Shown in pieces: positions 10,991-18,962 of a stretch of DNA of 64,000 bases. This DNA is from Natrinema amylolyticum (lineage in GTDB: Archaea; Halobacteriota; Halobacteria; Halobacteriales; Natrialbaceae). The notes under the pieces were generated by a model, which ran no database searches, had not been told where the DNA came from, and was given only the letters and a program-made list of their open reading frames with translations. The translations under genes were made by a program, and so were the position numbers. The stretch is from NCBI RefSeq assembly GCF_020515625.1, contig NZ_JAIWPJ010000001.1, positions 744,001-808,000 on the forward strand. Reading direction: 5' to 3'. How positions within the stretch are numbered: the first letter of the stretch is position 1; each line of letters begins with the position of its first letter.

Positions 10991-11980
10991 ATGGACTCGC
11001 CAGCGATACGCGACAGCACGATCCTCGTGACCGGCGGTGCGGGCTTCATCGGCAGCCACCTCGTCGAGGCCCTGGTCCCTCACAACGAGGTCAGAGTGCT
11101 CGACGACTTCACGACCGGTGACCGCGACTATCTCCCCGACGACGTGACGGTCATCGAGGGCGACGTTCGCGACCCGATAGCCCTCCAGGAGGCGGCCCGC
11201 GGCGTCGACGTGATCTTCCACCACGCCGCGCTCGTCAGTGTCACCCAGAGCGTCGACGACCCGCGCCAGAGCAATCGGACGAACCTCGAGGCGGGACTAT
11301 TAGTCCTCGAGCAGGCCCGTCAGGAGGACGCGCGGGTCGTCGTCGCCTCGAGCGCGGCCGTCTACGGCCACCCCGAGGAGTTGCCGGTGCCGGAGACGGC
11401 ACCGACGAACCCGACCTCGCCCTACGGCGTCCAGAAGCTCGCGCTCGACCAGTACGCCCGCCTCTACGAGGAGCTGTATGGGCTCGAGACCGTCGCGCTT
11501 CGGTATTTCAACGTCTACGGGCCGCGCCAGCAGGGGCCCTACAGCGGGGTAATCTCGACGTTCCTCGAGCAGGCGCGGGCGGGCGAGCCGATCACGATCG
11601 AAGGCGACGGCCAGCAGAGCCGCGACTTCGTCCACGTCAGCGACGTCGTCCGGGCGAACCTGCGGGCGGCGACGACCGACGCGGTCGGCGAAGCGTACAA
11701 CATCGGCACGGGGCAGCGAACGACGATTCTGGACCTCGCCGAGACGGTCCGCGACGCCACGGACTCAGCCTCGACGATCGCCCACCGCGACCCTCGCTCC
11801 GGCGACATCAGACACAGCGGCGCGGACACGTCGAAAGCGAGCCGCGATCTCGGGTTCGACGCCAACGTCGGCCTCGAGTCCGGAATCCGGTCACTGGTCG
11901 GCAGCGGCCGGCCGGAACTGGCCGAGACGGAGACCGGGGCCCCGCTCGAGCCGAACCGAGGCGGCGGGTCGTATAGCTGA
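10991..11980 (+). CDS. NAD-dependent sugar-nucleotide epimerase (GalE-like, extended SDR)
   Basis: 329 residues. The NAD-binding TGGAGFIGSHL, the catalytic SSAAVYG and YGVQK (YxxxK) and the substrate region RYFNVYGPRQ are those of UDP-glucose / UDP-N-acetylglucosamine 4-epimerases and related extended SDR enzymes. It probably interconverts a UDP-hexose or UDP-hexosamine used for surface glycans, although the nearest glycan operon is 9 kb away. A TATA-like ATACTAAAC ends about 25 nt before the ATG, consistent with a leaderless transcript. The last 20 residues are a Gly/Pro-rich tail outside the domain. Confidence 0.88.
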   Translation: MDSPAIRDSTILVTGGAGFIGSHLVEALVPHNEVRVLDDFTTGDRDYLPDDVTVIEGDVRDPIALQEAARGVDVIFHHAALVSVTQSVDDPRQSNRTNLEAGLLVLEQARQEDARVVVASSAAVYGHPEELPVPETAPTNPTSPYGVQKLALDQYARLYEELYGLETVALRYFNVYGPRQQGPYSGVISTFLEQARAGEPITIEGDGQQSRDFVHVSDVVRANLRAATTDAVGEAYNIGTGQRTTILDLAETVRDATDSASTIAHRDPRSGDIRHSGADTSKASRDLGFDANVGLESGIRSLVGSGRPELAETETGAPLEPNRGGGSYS

Positions 11981-12454: not shown

Positions 12455-12955
12455 ATGAGCAGTCGACGACGGGGTTCCACTCTTCGCGACGCGTACGAGT
12501 CGTCGAGCAGTGGTGCGGTCGCGTCCACGATCACCGCGAGTTCGTGGTCCGGATTCCTCCCGGGATTCGGCCGGCCGCTCCAACTGGACGGGAGCGCTCA
12601 TCTCGCGGCCCTCGCCGGCATGGTCGCGCTCGCAGTGCTCGGTGGGATACTCGTCGCTCGCAACCGATACGAGGAGCCGGCATCGCTCGCGAACGAACCC
12701 GAGCCGACTCGCGAGGAGTTCGTGACCGATCGAGAGCGGGTTCAGCAACTCCTCCGAGATAACGGGGGACGGATGAAGCAGTCGAATATCGTCGACTCGG
12801 TCGACTGGTCGAAAGCCAAGGTCAGCCGGCTACTCGCCGATCTCGAGGAGGACGGCCAGATCACGAAACTACGGCTCGGACGGGAGAATCTGGTCTGTCT
12901 GCCGGGTCACGAACCGACGGCGTCGAAGTCACCCGAACAGGCGAACGACGACTAG
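12455..12955 (+). CDS. Membrane-anchored winged-helix regulator
   Basis: 166 residues. A Ser-rich N-terminus is followed by one transmembrane segment (AALAGMVALAVLGGILVA, about residues 50-67). The cytoplasmic winged helix has the sequence VQQLLRDNGGRMKQSNIV, SKAKVSRLLADLEEDGQI and LGRENLVCLPG. This architecture is frequent in haloarchaea, where the HTH is MarR/IclR-like and targets are mostly unknown. Its stop is 220 bp upstream of the secreted repeat protein, so that gene is a natural candidate target. The start overlaps the stop of an 11-codon leader frame (ATGA). Confidence 0.8.
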   Translation: MSSRRRGSTLRDAYESSSSGAVASTITASSWSGFLPGFGRPLQLDGSAHLAALAGMVALAVLGGILVARNRYEEPASLANEPEPTREEFVTDRERVQQLLRDNGGRMKQSNIVDSVDWSKAKVSRLLADLEEDGQITKLRLGRENLVCLPGHEPTASKSPEQANDD

Positions 12956-13179: not shown

Positions 13180-15105
13180 ATGAACGCACGCAAACAGTTA
13201 CTCGTCGTACTTACCGCGCTGATGGTCGTTAGCTCTGGCGGGGCGATGGTGACAGCCGCGACAACCGGTGACACCGTCGAGCAGGGCGACGACGTCAGCG
13301 AGGACGAGTACGATGGAACAGACACCGAAGCGACGGACGAATCAGTAGCTCAGGACGAGGATAGTACAGACACGGCGACCGGACTCCAGGACAACGAGTC
13401 CGACGACGGCGAGATCGAACCGGATAATGAATCCGACGGTCAACAGGCCGCGTACGTGACGTTTACCGACCAGGCGGTCGAGGACGACACGGTCGTCGTC
13501 GAGAACGCCACGCTCGCGAGCGGTGGCTTCGTGACGATTCACGACAGTAGCCTCCTCGTCGGCAACGTCTTCGAGAGCGTCATCGGTACCTCGGCGTACC
13601 TCGAGGCGGGAACGCACGAGAACGTCGAGATCACGCTCGACGAGCCGCTCGAGGAAGACGAGACCCTGATCGCGATGCCGCATCGCGACACGAACGATAA
13701 CGAGGCGTACGATTTCGTCGAGACCGAAGGGGCAGCCGATGGACCGTACCTCACGCCCGATAACGAACCGGTGACCGACGATGCAGCGGTCACCGTCGAC
13801 GGAGCGGACGATGAAGCGCCCGTCGACGAAGAGCCGGTCGACGACAACGAAACCGATGAACTACCCGTCGACGAAGAACCGGTGACGGAAGAGCCGGTCG
13901 ATAACGAGACCGACGAGGAACCGGTCGCAGAAGAACCGGTTGACGAGGAACCGGTCGACAACGAGACTGACGAGCTCCCCGTCGAAGAGGAGCCAGTTGA
14001 CGAAGAGCCAGTCGATAACGAGACCGACGAACCGGTCGTAGAAGAACCGGTTGACGAGGAACCCGTTGCTGAAGAGCCGATGGACCAGATGCCCATCGAT
14101 GCCGATGAGCGTCCGGTCTTCGTCACGGTAGAGAACCTCACTGTCGAAAACCTGAACGTCGAGAACGCAGCCGTTTACGTTCTCGTCGTGGGTGAAAATA
14201 TCAGTGACGACGAACTCCCGGACGAGATCGATACTATCACCGAGGAGCCAGTCGATAACGAGACCGACGAAGCACCGGTCGACGATAACGAAACCGACGA
14301 AGATCTATTCGACGATAACGAGACCGACGAAGAGCCGGTCGACGATAACGAAACCGACGAGGATCTATTCGACGACAACGAGACTGACGAAGAGCCAGTC
14401 GACGACAACGAAACTGACGAAGATCTATTCGACGACAACGAAACTGACGAAGCACCGGTCGACGACAACGAAACCGACGAAGAGCTGGTCGATGATAACG
14501 AGACCGACGAAGCACCGGTCGACGACAACGAAACTGACGAAGATCTATTCGACGATAACGAAACCGACGAAGAACCGGTCGACGACAACGAAACCGACGA
14601 AGAGCTGGTCGACGATAACGAGACCGACGAGGAACCGGTCGACGAAGAAGTGACGGCCGGGGCCTTCAACGTCAGTGATCTCGAGGCTCCCGAGAGCGCC
14701 ACGGTCGGTGAGACCATCACCGTGACGGCGACGGTCGAGAATCCGGAGGACGAGGAGCGTGTCGATAACATCCAGTTCCGGATCGACGGTGACCTCGTCG
14801 CCGAACAAGACGTGACGCTCGAGGGCGACGAGAGTACCGATGTCGGGTTCGAAGTCGACACGAGCGGCCTCGAGGCCGGCCAGTACATTCACATGGTGTT
14901 GGCCAATCAGTCCGGTGAGGTCGCGGTCCTCGAACTGACCGAGGAGACCGATACCGACACTGACGATACCGAATCGGACGGTATCGGGGACGAGACTGAT
15001 GACACGAACGAGACCGAAGACGGTCTCAACGAAACCGACGAGACCGAAGACGGCCTCAACGAAACCGACGAGACGAACGAGAGTGACGACGGCCTGACGG
15101 CCTAA
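13180..15105 (+). CDS. Secreted DUF7282-type surface protein with acidic NET-sequon repeats
   Basis: 641 residues. A signal peptide (residues 1-27, ending TAA|TT) is followed by a linker and a DUF7282-like beta domain (about 89-208: AYVTFTDQAVEDDTVVVENA to AVTVDG). Next come acidic EEPVDNETDE-type repeats, a short VENLTVENLNVENAAV domain, thirteen more 10-residue repeats (DDNETDE plus three residues), a CARDB-like domain (ESATVGETITVTATVENP) and an acidic tail with GLNETDETED. No C-terminal membrane anchor is seen. I count 27 N-x-S/T sequons, nearly all in the repeats, so the repeats look like glycan attachment arrays. A TTTAT box at 13135-13139 precedes a 6-codon frame whose stop overlaps this ATG. 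Confidence 0.8.
   Translation: MNARKQLLVVLTALMVVSSGGAMVTAATTGDTVEQGDDVSEDEYDGTDTEATDESVAQDEDSTDTATGLQDNESDDGEIEPDNESDGQQAAYVTFTDQAVEDDTVVVENATLASGGFVTIHDSSLLVGNVFESVIGTSAYLEAGTHENVEITLDEPLEEDETLIAMPHRDTNDNEAYDFVETEGAADGPYLTPDNEPVTDDAAVTVDGADDEAPVDEEPVDDNETDELPVDEEPVTEEPVDNETDEEPVAEEPVDEEPVDNETDELPVEEEPVDEEPVDNETDEPVVEEPVDEEPVAEEPMDQMPIDADERPVFVTVENLTVENLNVENAAVYVLVVGENISDDELPDEIDTITEEPVDNETDEAPVDDNETDEDLFDDNETDEEPVDDNETDEDLFDDNETDEEPVDDNETDEDLFDDNETDEAPVDDNETDEELVDDNETDEAPVDDNETDEDLFDDNETDEEPVDDNETDEELVDDNETDEEPVDEEVTAGAFNVSDLEAPESATVGETITVTATVENPEDEERVDNIQFRIDGDLVAEQDVTLEGDESTDVGFEVDTSGLEAGQYIHMVLANQSGEVAVLELTEETDTDTDDTESDGIGDETDDTNETEDGLNETDETEDGLNETDETNESDDGLTA
14251..14640 (+). repeat. 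13 tandem 30-bp units encoding DNETDE decapeptides
   Basis: 390 bp are exactly thirteen 30-bp units inside the secreted protein gene. Each unit encodes a D-N-E-T-D-E core followed by DLF, EPV, APV or ELV and carries one N-glycosylation sequon. Third positions differ between units, so the array is not a very recent expansion throughout. Confidence 0.95.
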
Positions 15106-17886: not shown

Positions 17887-17913
17887 ACCGATGAGTGGTT
17901 CGATCCGACGAGA

Positions 17914-17979
17914 ATGCCACTCGCCTCGTCCGTACGGATATCGAACACCGACCAGCGAACGCCGGTGTATCGTCGATGA
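17914..17979 (+). CDS. 21-codon leader frame coupled to the DUF1616 gene
   Basis: The frame runs from ATG 17914 to a TGA that overlaps the ATG at 17976 (ATGA). The product starts MPLASSVRIS and has no recognisable domain. It lies 28 nt behind an ATAACAA-type element. Confidence 0.35.
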   Translation: MPLASSVRISNTDQRTPVYRR

Positions 17980-18962
17980 GCCACGAAACGAGCACCTGGA
18001 CCAGGTTCGGAGCCGTTCGTCGCTACCCGTTCGACCTCGCGGCCGTCTCGGTCGGTGCGCTCGTCGCCTACCTGCTCGCGACATCGTTGGCGAGCGAGAA
18101 CGCGCTGCGGCTGTTCGTAACCCTTCCGCTCGCCCTGTTTCTGCCGGGCTATGCGCTCGTCTCGGTCCTCTTTCCGGCCGGCGAACGGGGCGCACGCGAG
18201 ACGGCGGCGACGGCCGCCGAGCGCCGGCCCGGTGGGATCGACGTGACCGAACGCGCGGGACTCTCGTTCGTCCTGTCGCTGGCGATCGTTCCCCTGATCG
18301 TCCTGGCGGTACCGCTCGTCGGGATCGGACTGACGACGACGTCGATCGCAGCGGGGCTCGCTCTCTTCACGATCGCCATCGCACAGCTCGGCGTCGTCCG
18401 GCGGCTCCGAGTGCCGGACGGCGATCGCTTTACCGTCTCGCCGCTCGAGCGCGTCAGTGCTCTCAGCGGCGAAAGCGCGACTGCGACGGTGTCGTCGGTC
18501 CTGCTCGTTTTGGCGATCGGGACGGCGGTCAGCGCGTTGCTCGTCGCGTTTCTGGTGCCCGCGTCGGCGGGCGGCTTCACCGAACTCGCGCTTTACAGCG
18601 AGGACGAGGACGGCGAAGTCGTCGCCGGCGAACTCCCGAGCGAAGTCGAGCCGGGCGAGTCGATTCCGCTGACGATCGCCATCGAGAACCAGGAGGGTGC
18701 CGATCGGGACTATACGGTCGTCGTGCAGGAACAGTCCCTCGAGGACGGATCGGTCGTCGATCGGACGGAGTTACGGCGGATCGACGCGACCGTCTCGGAC
18801 GGTGCGACGGGGACCGGGGAGCGGTCGATAACACCGACCGCAGAGCCGGGCGAAACGGTTCGGATCAGCGTCTTGCTCTACGAGGACGAGCCGCCGGCGA
18901 CGCCGACGAACGAGAACGCTGCAGAGGAGACTCACTTCTGGGTCACGGTGACCGGGGAGTGA
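17976..18962 (+). CDS. DUF1616 membrane protein
   Basis: 328 residues from the ATG at 17976. The N-terminal two thirds hold four transmembrane segments including YPFDLAAVSVGALVAYLLA, LPLALFLPGYALVSVLFP (the DUF1616 signature), AGLSFVLSLAIVPLIVLAV and a further pair. The C-terminal third, after LLVAFLVPASAGGFTEL, is an extracellular beta domain (TIAIENQEGADRDYTVVVQE). DUF1616 proteins of archaea tend to sit in polysaccharide gene clusters; their biochemical role is unknown. The start overlaps a 21-codon leader frame, and an ATAACAA-type element lies upstream, which would tie it to the glycan genes further on. Confidence 0.82.
   Translation: MSHETSTWTRFGAVRRYPFDLAAVSVGALVAYLLATSLASENALRLFVTLPLALFLPGYALVSVLFPAGERGARETAATAAERRPGGIDVTERAGLSFVLSLAIVPLIVLAVPLVGIGLTTTSIAAGLALFTIAIAQLGVVRRLRVPDGDRFTVSPLERVSALSGESATATVSSVLLVLAIGTAVSALLVAFLVPASAGGFTELALYSEDEDGEVVAGELPSEVEPGESIPLTIAIENQEGADRDYTVVVQEQSLEDGSVVDRTELRRIDATVSDGATGTGERSITPTAEPGETVRISVLLYEDEPPATPTNENAAEETHFWVTVTGE

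Follow-up and report, generated by a model that had tools for sequence, protein, structure and literature searches.

The window, a 64,000-nucleotide stretch of the Natrinema amylolyticum genome, contains an open reading frame (ORF) at 13180-15105 whose product is probably a Sec-exported, disordered, polyanionic spacer with repeats that act as an array of N-glycan acceptors. The ORF encodes 28 N-x-S/T sequons (22 NxT and 6 NxS), with 13 in a tandem array and 15 elsewhere; a preliminary description of this DNA had given 27 in total and 14 outside the array. Such arrays are kept up across lineages that use different repeat units, the locus is syntenic, and the genome encodes the oligosaccharyltransferase (OST) AglB.

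Architecture and genomic setting

The features of the gene and its surroundings are as follows.

10991-11980, forward strand: NAD-dependent sugar epimerase/dehydratase (PF01370, E=3e-62; synteny)
12455-12955, forward strand: membrane protein, single-pass by inspection, whose cytoplasmic domain is a winged helix of the DUF7343 family (PF24034, E=6e-29)
13180-15105, forward strand: predicted secreted acidic-repeat protein, 641 residues, 28 sequons (ATG ORF; orthologues in 29/29 genus genomes)
13180-13257, forward strand: putative Sec-type signal peptide, residues 1-26, AxA-like cleavage (by inspection and orthologue comparison)
13450-13794, forward strand: DUF7282 domain, residues 91-205, β-sandwich with an EF-hand-like DTNDNxxYDF loop (PF23951, E=3.7e-43; AlphaFold)
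13795-14097, forward strand: first acidic repeat region (EEPVDEEPV...), four NETD sequons, 57-bp period
14110-14214, forward strand: short module between the repeat regions (FVTVENLTVENLNVENAAVYVLVVGENIS), two sequons
14248-14637, forward strand: 13 x 30-bp array, decapeptide [VF]DDNETDE[EDA][PL], one sequon per unit (TRF, unit listing)
14656-14937, forward strand: C-terminal Ig/CARDB-like β domain, residues 493-586, two sequons (sub-threshold Big_3_5 match, structure model, alignment)
14938-15102, forward strand: acidic C-terminal tail, four sequons, with no transmembrane or PGF-CTERM segment
15316-15819, reverse strand: DUF7344 protein, predicted regulator, convergent (PF24035; synteny)
17895-18962, forward strand: DUF1616 membrane protein, start of a glycan cluster (PF07760; order shared with Haloterrigena plasmids)

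The product is strongly acidic, with 38% Asp plus Glu, six Lys/Arg residues and no Cys. Its N terminus is, by inspection, a typical Sec-type signal peptide (MNARKQLLVVLTALMVVSSGGAMVTA, predicted to be cleaved before Ala), and the pattern MNARxQ...GAMV.A is conserved in the signal peptides of orthologues. The predicted signal is followed by an acidic linker, the DUF7282 domain, acidic repeats with the four NETD sequons, the short module (a similar segment of which is present in most Natrinema orthologues), the 13-unit array, the Ig/CARDB-like domain and the acidic tail. The match to PF23951 scores 146.7 bits against a curated cut-off of 27, placing the protein within that family. No NCBIfam model matched the product, and a Pfam match to Extensin_1 (35 bits, cut-off 105) was rejected as a low-complexity artefact.

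An AlphaFold model of the DUF7282 domain built from 43 sequences is a β-sandwich (pLDDT 93.9). A search of the PDB found no sequence relative of the domain, a fold search returned weak immunoglobulin-like matches only (TM 0.5 or less) that indicate no function, and the literature searched holds no published function for DUF7282. In a model of the whole protein, made with two sequences only, the repeats have a pLDDT of ~40 and no secondary structure, and the C-terminal β domain forms seven strands with pLDDT near 80 (up to 82); the stretch that aligns with this domain carries a CARDB annotation in Halobellus. Since an OST acceptor must be extended and unfolded (PMC7226087), disordered repeats would offer the extended acceptor that the enzyme needs. 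The AglB encoded in the genome (869 bits, with the WWDYG motif) lies ~400 kb from the window. The protein combines two features expected of an AglB-dependent N-glycoprotein, namely an export signal (by inspection, conserved in orthologues) and, in its 28 sequons, usable N-x-S/T sites (X not Pro) together with a genomic OST. A second STT3-like protein, scoring 96 bits and so far below the AglB cut-off, is encoded ~92 kb downstream of the window (G000 C1:900521-902593; L042, L043), and STT3-like proteins of this sub-cut-off kind recur in many genomes of the family.

No membrane anchor, whether lipobox, PGF-CTERM or transmembrane segment, was found in the product. The C terminus (...NETDETNESDDGLTA) has none of the PGF motif, hydrophobic segment and basic tail of an ArtA/PGF-CTERM substrate, and a haloarchaeal lipobox Cys is absent, as is Cys anywhere in the 641 residues. 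The earlier proposal of a surface-bound molecule is therefore not supported.

The orthologue of the ORF is present in all 29 Natrinema genomes searched, in one of them truncated, and the epimerase and membrane-HTH genes lie upstream of it in 29/29 genus loci. The convergent DUF7344 gene was found in genus loci wherever the fetched flank extends that far. The locus order recurs on plasmids of Haloterrigena, Natronorubrum, Halosolutus and Halomontanus, with an equivalent of the membrane-HTH gene annotated in 5/6 plasmid loci and none listed in the Halomontanus record. Relatives of the N-terminal part (E <= 1e-20) occur in 104/121 family genomes and 26/29 genera, some of them being other DUF7282 proteins. 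The truncated Natrinema copy (L039, genome G010) is a broken orthologue of 276 residues that ends within DUF7282 and continues into unrelated sequence. By its description the DUF7343 membrane protein, encoded immediately upstream of the spacer in each genus locus, is similar to HVO_1944 of Hfx. volcanii ('transmembrane glycoprotein/HTH'), and it may pair with the spacer protein as a surface sensor. Downstream of the ORF the glycan cluster comprises DUF1616, acetyltransferase, DegT aminotransferase and glycosyltransferase genes; with AglB ~400 kb away, the suggestion that this nearby cluster feeds the sequon protein did not find support.

Sequon arrays and their turnover

The array at 14248-14637 has an exact 30-bp period with NETD once in each of its 13 units, as the preliminary description had stated, although its copies are not exact as had also been stated: 11/13 of the 30-mers are distinct, identical pairs number 2/78 and the mean pairwise identity is 24.9/30. 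These, like the total of 27, are minor errors within a sound observation. TRF called the array at 14253-14645 (period 30, 13.1 copies, 81% matches, 0 indels). At the peptide level there are seven variants (e.g. VDDNETDEDL, FDDNETDEEP and VDDNETDEEL), all of which share the D-N-E-T-D-E core at positions 3-8, whose codons vary synonymously; the variation lies at the PV/LF/LV positions and in synonymous codons. Four extra NETD units with a 57-bp period lie 5' of the array, and a short 30-bp repeat lies at the gene end.

The repeat region holds 19 sequons, compared with a mean of 1.6 and a maximum of 6 in 1000 shuffles. Genome background came from a sample of 464 kb of this genome, in which a crude acid-bias gene caller gave 307 ORFs: those lacking a signal average 0.24 sequons per 100 residues with 10% of Asn in sequons, and signal-bearing ones average 0.91 per 100 residues with 25% of Asn in sequons. 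The ORF at 13180-15105 reaches 4.4 per 100 residues with 72% of Asn in sequons, and has the highest sequon count among the 307 ORFs. Elsewhere in the genome, a second DUF7282 protein of ~232 residues (L072:17429-18127; C1:167429-168127) is denser, with 19 sequons (8.2 per 100 residues), many in loops of the domain itself, and similar short proteins are present in other Natrinema genomes. A 691-residue frame with five tandem DUF7282 copies (G000 C1:957773-959512; L003-L007) was also observed, and other haloarchaea have multi-copy DUF7282 forms, some with a PGF-CTERM-like anchor.

By itself the array proves little, because unit copying alone would spread a sequon; the comparison of orthologues decides. 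The 28 usable Natrinema orthologues have 18-58 sequons each in wholly different repeat units (DDNETDEDLF, DEEPFDDNETDEDEL, LDDEEDNVTDEEPV, DDEEDNITDEEPL and EEDNETVVDEEPV), and orthologue repeat cores include NET, NVT, NIT, NAS, NDT and NLT, with sequon spacing from 3 to >20 residues. In the repeat regions of 27 of these orthologues, 449/530 Asn (85%) start a sequon, compared with 5% for the control pattern D-x-S/T, 15% for Q-x-S/T and 3.6% for the reversed sequon. That so high a fraction persists despite lineage-specific units supports selection acting on the sequon. Over 44 sequon-rich Natrialbaceae orthologues, with identical contexts collapsed within species, 82% of the distinct Asn contexts have Ser/Thr at +2, against 2-19% for other offsets, and 1016 sequons were observed against 159 ± 12 in shuffles; as the rich class is itself defined by sequon density, the genus figure (449/530) is the cleaner one.

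The middle residue of the sequon varies freely (E, V, I, D, L and A), with one restriction: N-P-S/T does not occur in the repeats of the orthologues, though Pro makes up 6% of linker residues, and was found only in folded modules (the CARDB-like domain and the short module). This agrees with the archaeal OST, which does not accept Pro at X and is otherwise largely unselective (PMC8342417). In the DUF7282 domain the sequon at N109 is kept in 28/28 Natrinema orthologues with X variable (column count). Retention of N and T/S with X free is the pattern expected of an OST recognition signal. Asn has been lost from some units in one Natrinema clade (DDVTEE for DNVTEE).

Repeat copy number shifts quickly between closely related species. 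Over the 1.3 kb from the membrane-HTH gene to DUF7282, the loci L031 and L033 share 97.6% identity, yet they have 2 and 6 EEDNET units; L028 and L036, at 96.4% identity, differ by 85 residues. The earlier expectation that repeat number would vary thus holds between close species.

Sequon loading outside Natrinema is lineage-specific. Units that bear sequons vary with the lineage (EEPNETEEPV, EEPVNETPTEE, PVDNESVDEEAAD and ENVTEENVTEE), and 20/64 orthologues in the tree set form a sequon-poor class, most with 0-5 sequons, built of units such as PVEEEPVEEEP, PEETPEET and PEETPEETPEET. In sequon-poor copies Asn is 2.1% of linker residues and 28% of Asn are in sequons; in sequon-rich copies the figures are 6.3% and 84%. 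A tree of the folded parts, with repeats left out, requires eight state changes by parsimony, at least two of them forced by well-supported branches, and two Natronorubrum species have 2 and 15 sequons at the same locus. The occurrence of both forms despite near-universal AglB indicates loading that was gained or lost more than once, so that the acidic repeat scaffold is the constant and the N-glycan sites the added, repeatedly changed feature. Since sequon-free acidic repeats are common in sister genera with AglB, the protein's basic role does not depend on glycosylation. AglB loss was rejected as the reason why some orthologues lack sequons: each of the 111 family genomes of good quality has at least a partial AglB match, nearly all above the cut-off. 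Nor do the named examples support alkaliphily, judged from species names only, as the cause: sequons number 34 in Haloterrigena alkaliphila, 2 in Natronorubrum bangense and 15 in N. aibiense. In one Natrinema genome rated 100% complete (G017; L030), AglB and both AglB flanks are absent and the orthologue has 25 sequons; the absence is possibly an assembly gap.

Proposed role and alternatives

In the mechanism we propose, the unfolded chain would emerge at the outer face of the cell, where AglB would load lipid-linked oligosaccharides onto N-x-T/S sites ~10 residues apart, giving a mucin-like brush, extended, hydrated and negatively charged, that may serve in hydration or shielding. The small folded β domains (DUF7282 on the N side, Ig/CARDB-like on the C side) may tether the brush to, or contact, the cell surface or matrix. 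Attachment is the weakest step of this proposal, the protein being without lipobox, PGF-CTERM or transmembrane segment. Tandem slippage and duplication would remodel the repeats, with selection retaining a sequon in each new unit.

The repeats could instead form a disordered acidic spacer or haloadaptive brush that depends on its charge, the sequons being by-products of repeat expansion that mostly stay unoccupied. The constancy of acidic repeats across Natrialbaceae, the 20/64 sequon-poor orthologues and the fact that copying a unit also copies its sequon fit such a brush, but copying fails to explain why nearly all independently arisen units, with different flanks and different X, contain N-x-S/T, and it explains neither the threefold higher Asn content where sequons are present (6.3% versus 2.1%) nor the lack of N-P-S/T; we consider this account unlikely. 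The same N-x-S/T grammar and the tolerance of hydrophobic X are left unexplained if the protein is a matrix protein that binds divalent cations (Ca2+/Mg2+), with D/E/N-rich repeats mediating cell-cell or matrix contacts and glycans being secondary. Its 38% Asp plus Glu, the acidic repeats of all orthologues and a conserved DUF7282 loop of EF-hand-like pattern (DTNDNxxYDF; in alignment A1, H83, D85 and Y92 are invariant) are compatible with cation binding, but the repeats match no known cation-binding repeat family in Pfam, and we regard this role as improbable.

The fast change in repeat unit and number (2 versus 6 copies at 97.6% identity) also bears on a released exoprotein glycoprotein that would titrate halovirus or predator adhesins as a decoy, an arms race driving repeat turnover. 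The lack of a detectable anchor, the adjoining surface-glycan cluster and the plasmid-borne copies in several genera are consistent with a decoy, but any tandem array should turn over fast, and the locus is conserved genus-wide. We consider it very improbable. The preferred reading, an exported spacer bearing N-glycan acceptors, accords with the dedicated glycan carrier or mucin-like molecule envisaged in the preliminary description insofar as sequons outlast replacement of the unit, the repeats have no Pro at X and the genome encodes an AglB with WWDYG; sequon loading is no fixed trait of the protein, however, given the 0-5 sequons in the equally acidic repeats of many related-genus orthologues.

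Relation to known glycoproteins and significance

The heavily glycosylated haloarchaeal surface protein is a known idea. S-layer glycoproteins are abundant and lattice-forming, with an ArtA-processed anchor. Haloarchaeal S-layer glycoproteins are likewise exported and acidic, and are N-glycosylated by AglB (PMC8241124); the Natrinema protein differs in that it lacks an ArtA-type anchor and matches no S-layer domain in Pfam. In Haloferax volcanii, one study reports 39 N-glycoproteins, one of which, the secreted HVO_2160, has 19 mapped AglB-dependent N-glycosites and belongs to a cluster that includes a DUF1616 protein, itself N-glycosylated (PMC8241124). HVO_2160 is larger than any other Hfx. 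volcanii protein and is predicted to be an ArtA (PGF-CTERM) substrate; the sites of the Natrinema protein, by contrast, lie in short acidic tandem repeats, and no anchor was found in it. Halomucin (Hmu1) of Haloquadratum walsbyi is likewise exported and repeat-rich and is proposed to form a glycosylated, hydrated negative shield (PMC1544339). It has 9159 residues and mucin-type domains; the proposed sites of the Natrinema protein differ in being N-linked sequons within an acidic repeat. The β domain is shared with DUF7282 (PF23951) proteins of Haloferax, Halorubrum and Haloglomus. Multi-domain members have several tandem copies (that of L053 has a PGF-CTERM-like anchor and few sequons), unlike the Natrinema type with its one DUF7282 domain and long acidic repeats.

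With long tandem repeats predicted to be disordered, densely spaced predicted acceptor sites and variable repeat number, the protein has the features of a mucin-like molecule. Classical mucins are densely O-glycosylated on Ser/Thr/Pro-rich repeats, whereas these repeats are D/E/N/T-rich, with Ser plus Thr at 10% of repeat regions over Natrinema; the protein may thus be mucin-like in function, yet no classical mucin. The literature searched (DUF7282, archaeal sequon or mucin arrays) holds no report of a conserved acidic-repeat protein with a re-invented N-sequon array. In silico, trypsin yields peptides of 164, 142, 216 and 107 residues, and the array would be nearly invisible to standard glycoproteomics because it lies inside the 216-residue peptide, which carries 16 sequons.

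If its sites are used, the protein would be a natural, regularly spaced archaeal N-glycan array, a mucin built on N- and not O-glycans, in which copy number would act as a dial for evolution. That a single syntenic locus has orthologues both with and without sequon loading, in genera of which nearly all have AglB, makes the value of dense N-glycosylation on a polyanionic spacer testable. A broader reading, somewhat less likely than not, is that of an archaeal 'N-mucin', a family-wide acidic spacer that has acquired arrays of N-glycan sites several times independently, with a new unit in each lineage. If so, N-sequon arrays would represent a convergent alternative route to mucin-like brushes, tuned by copy number.
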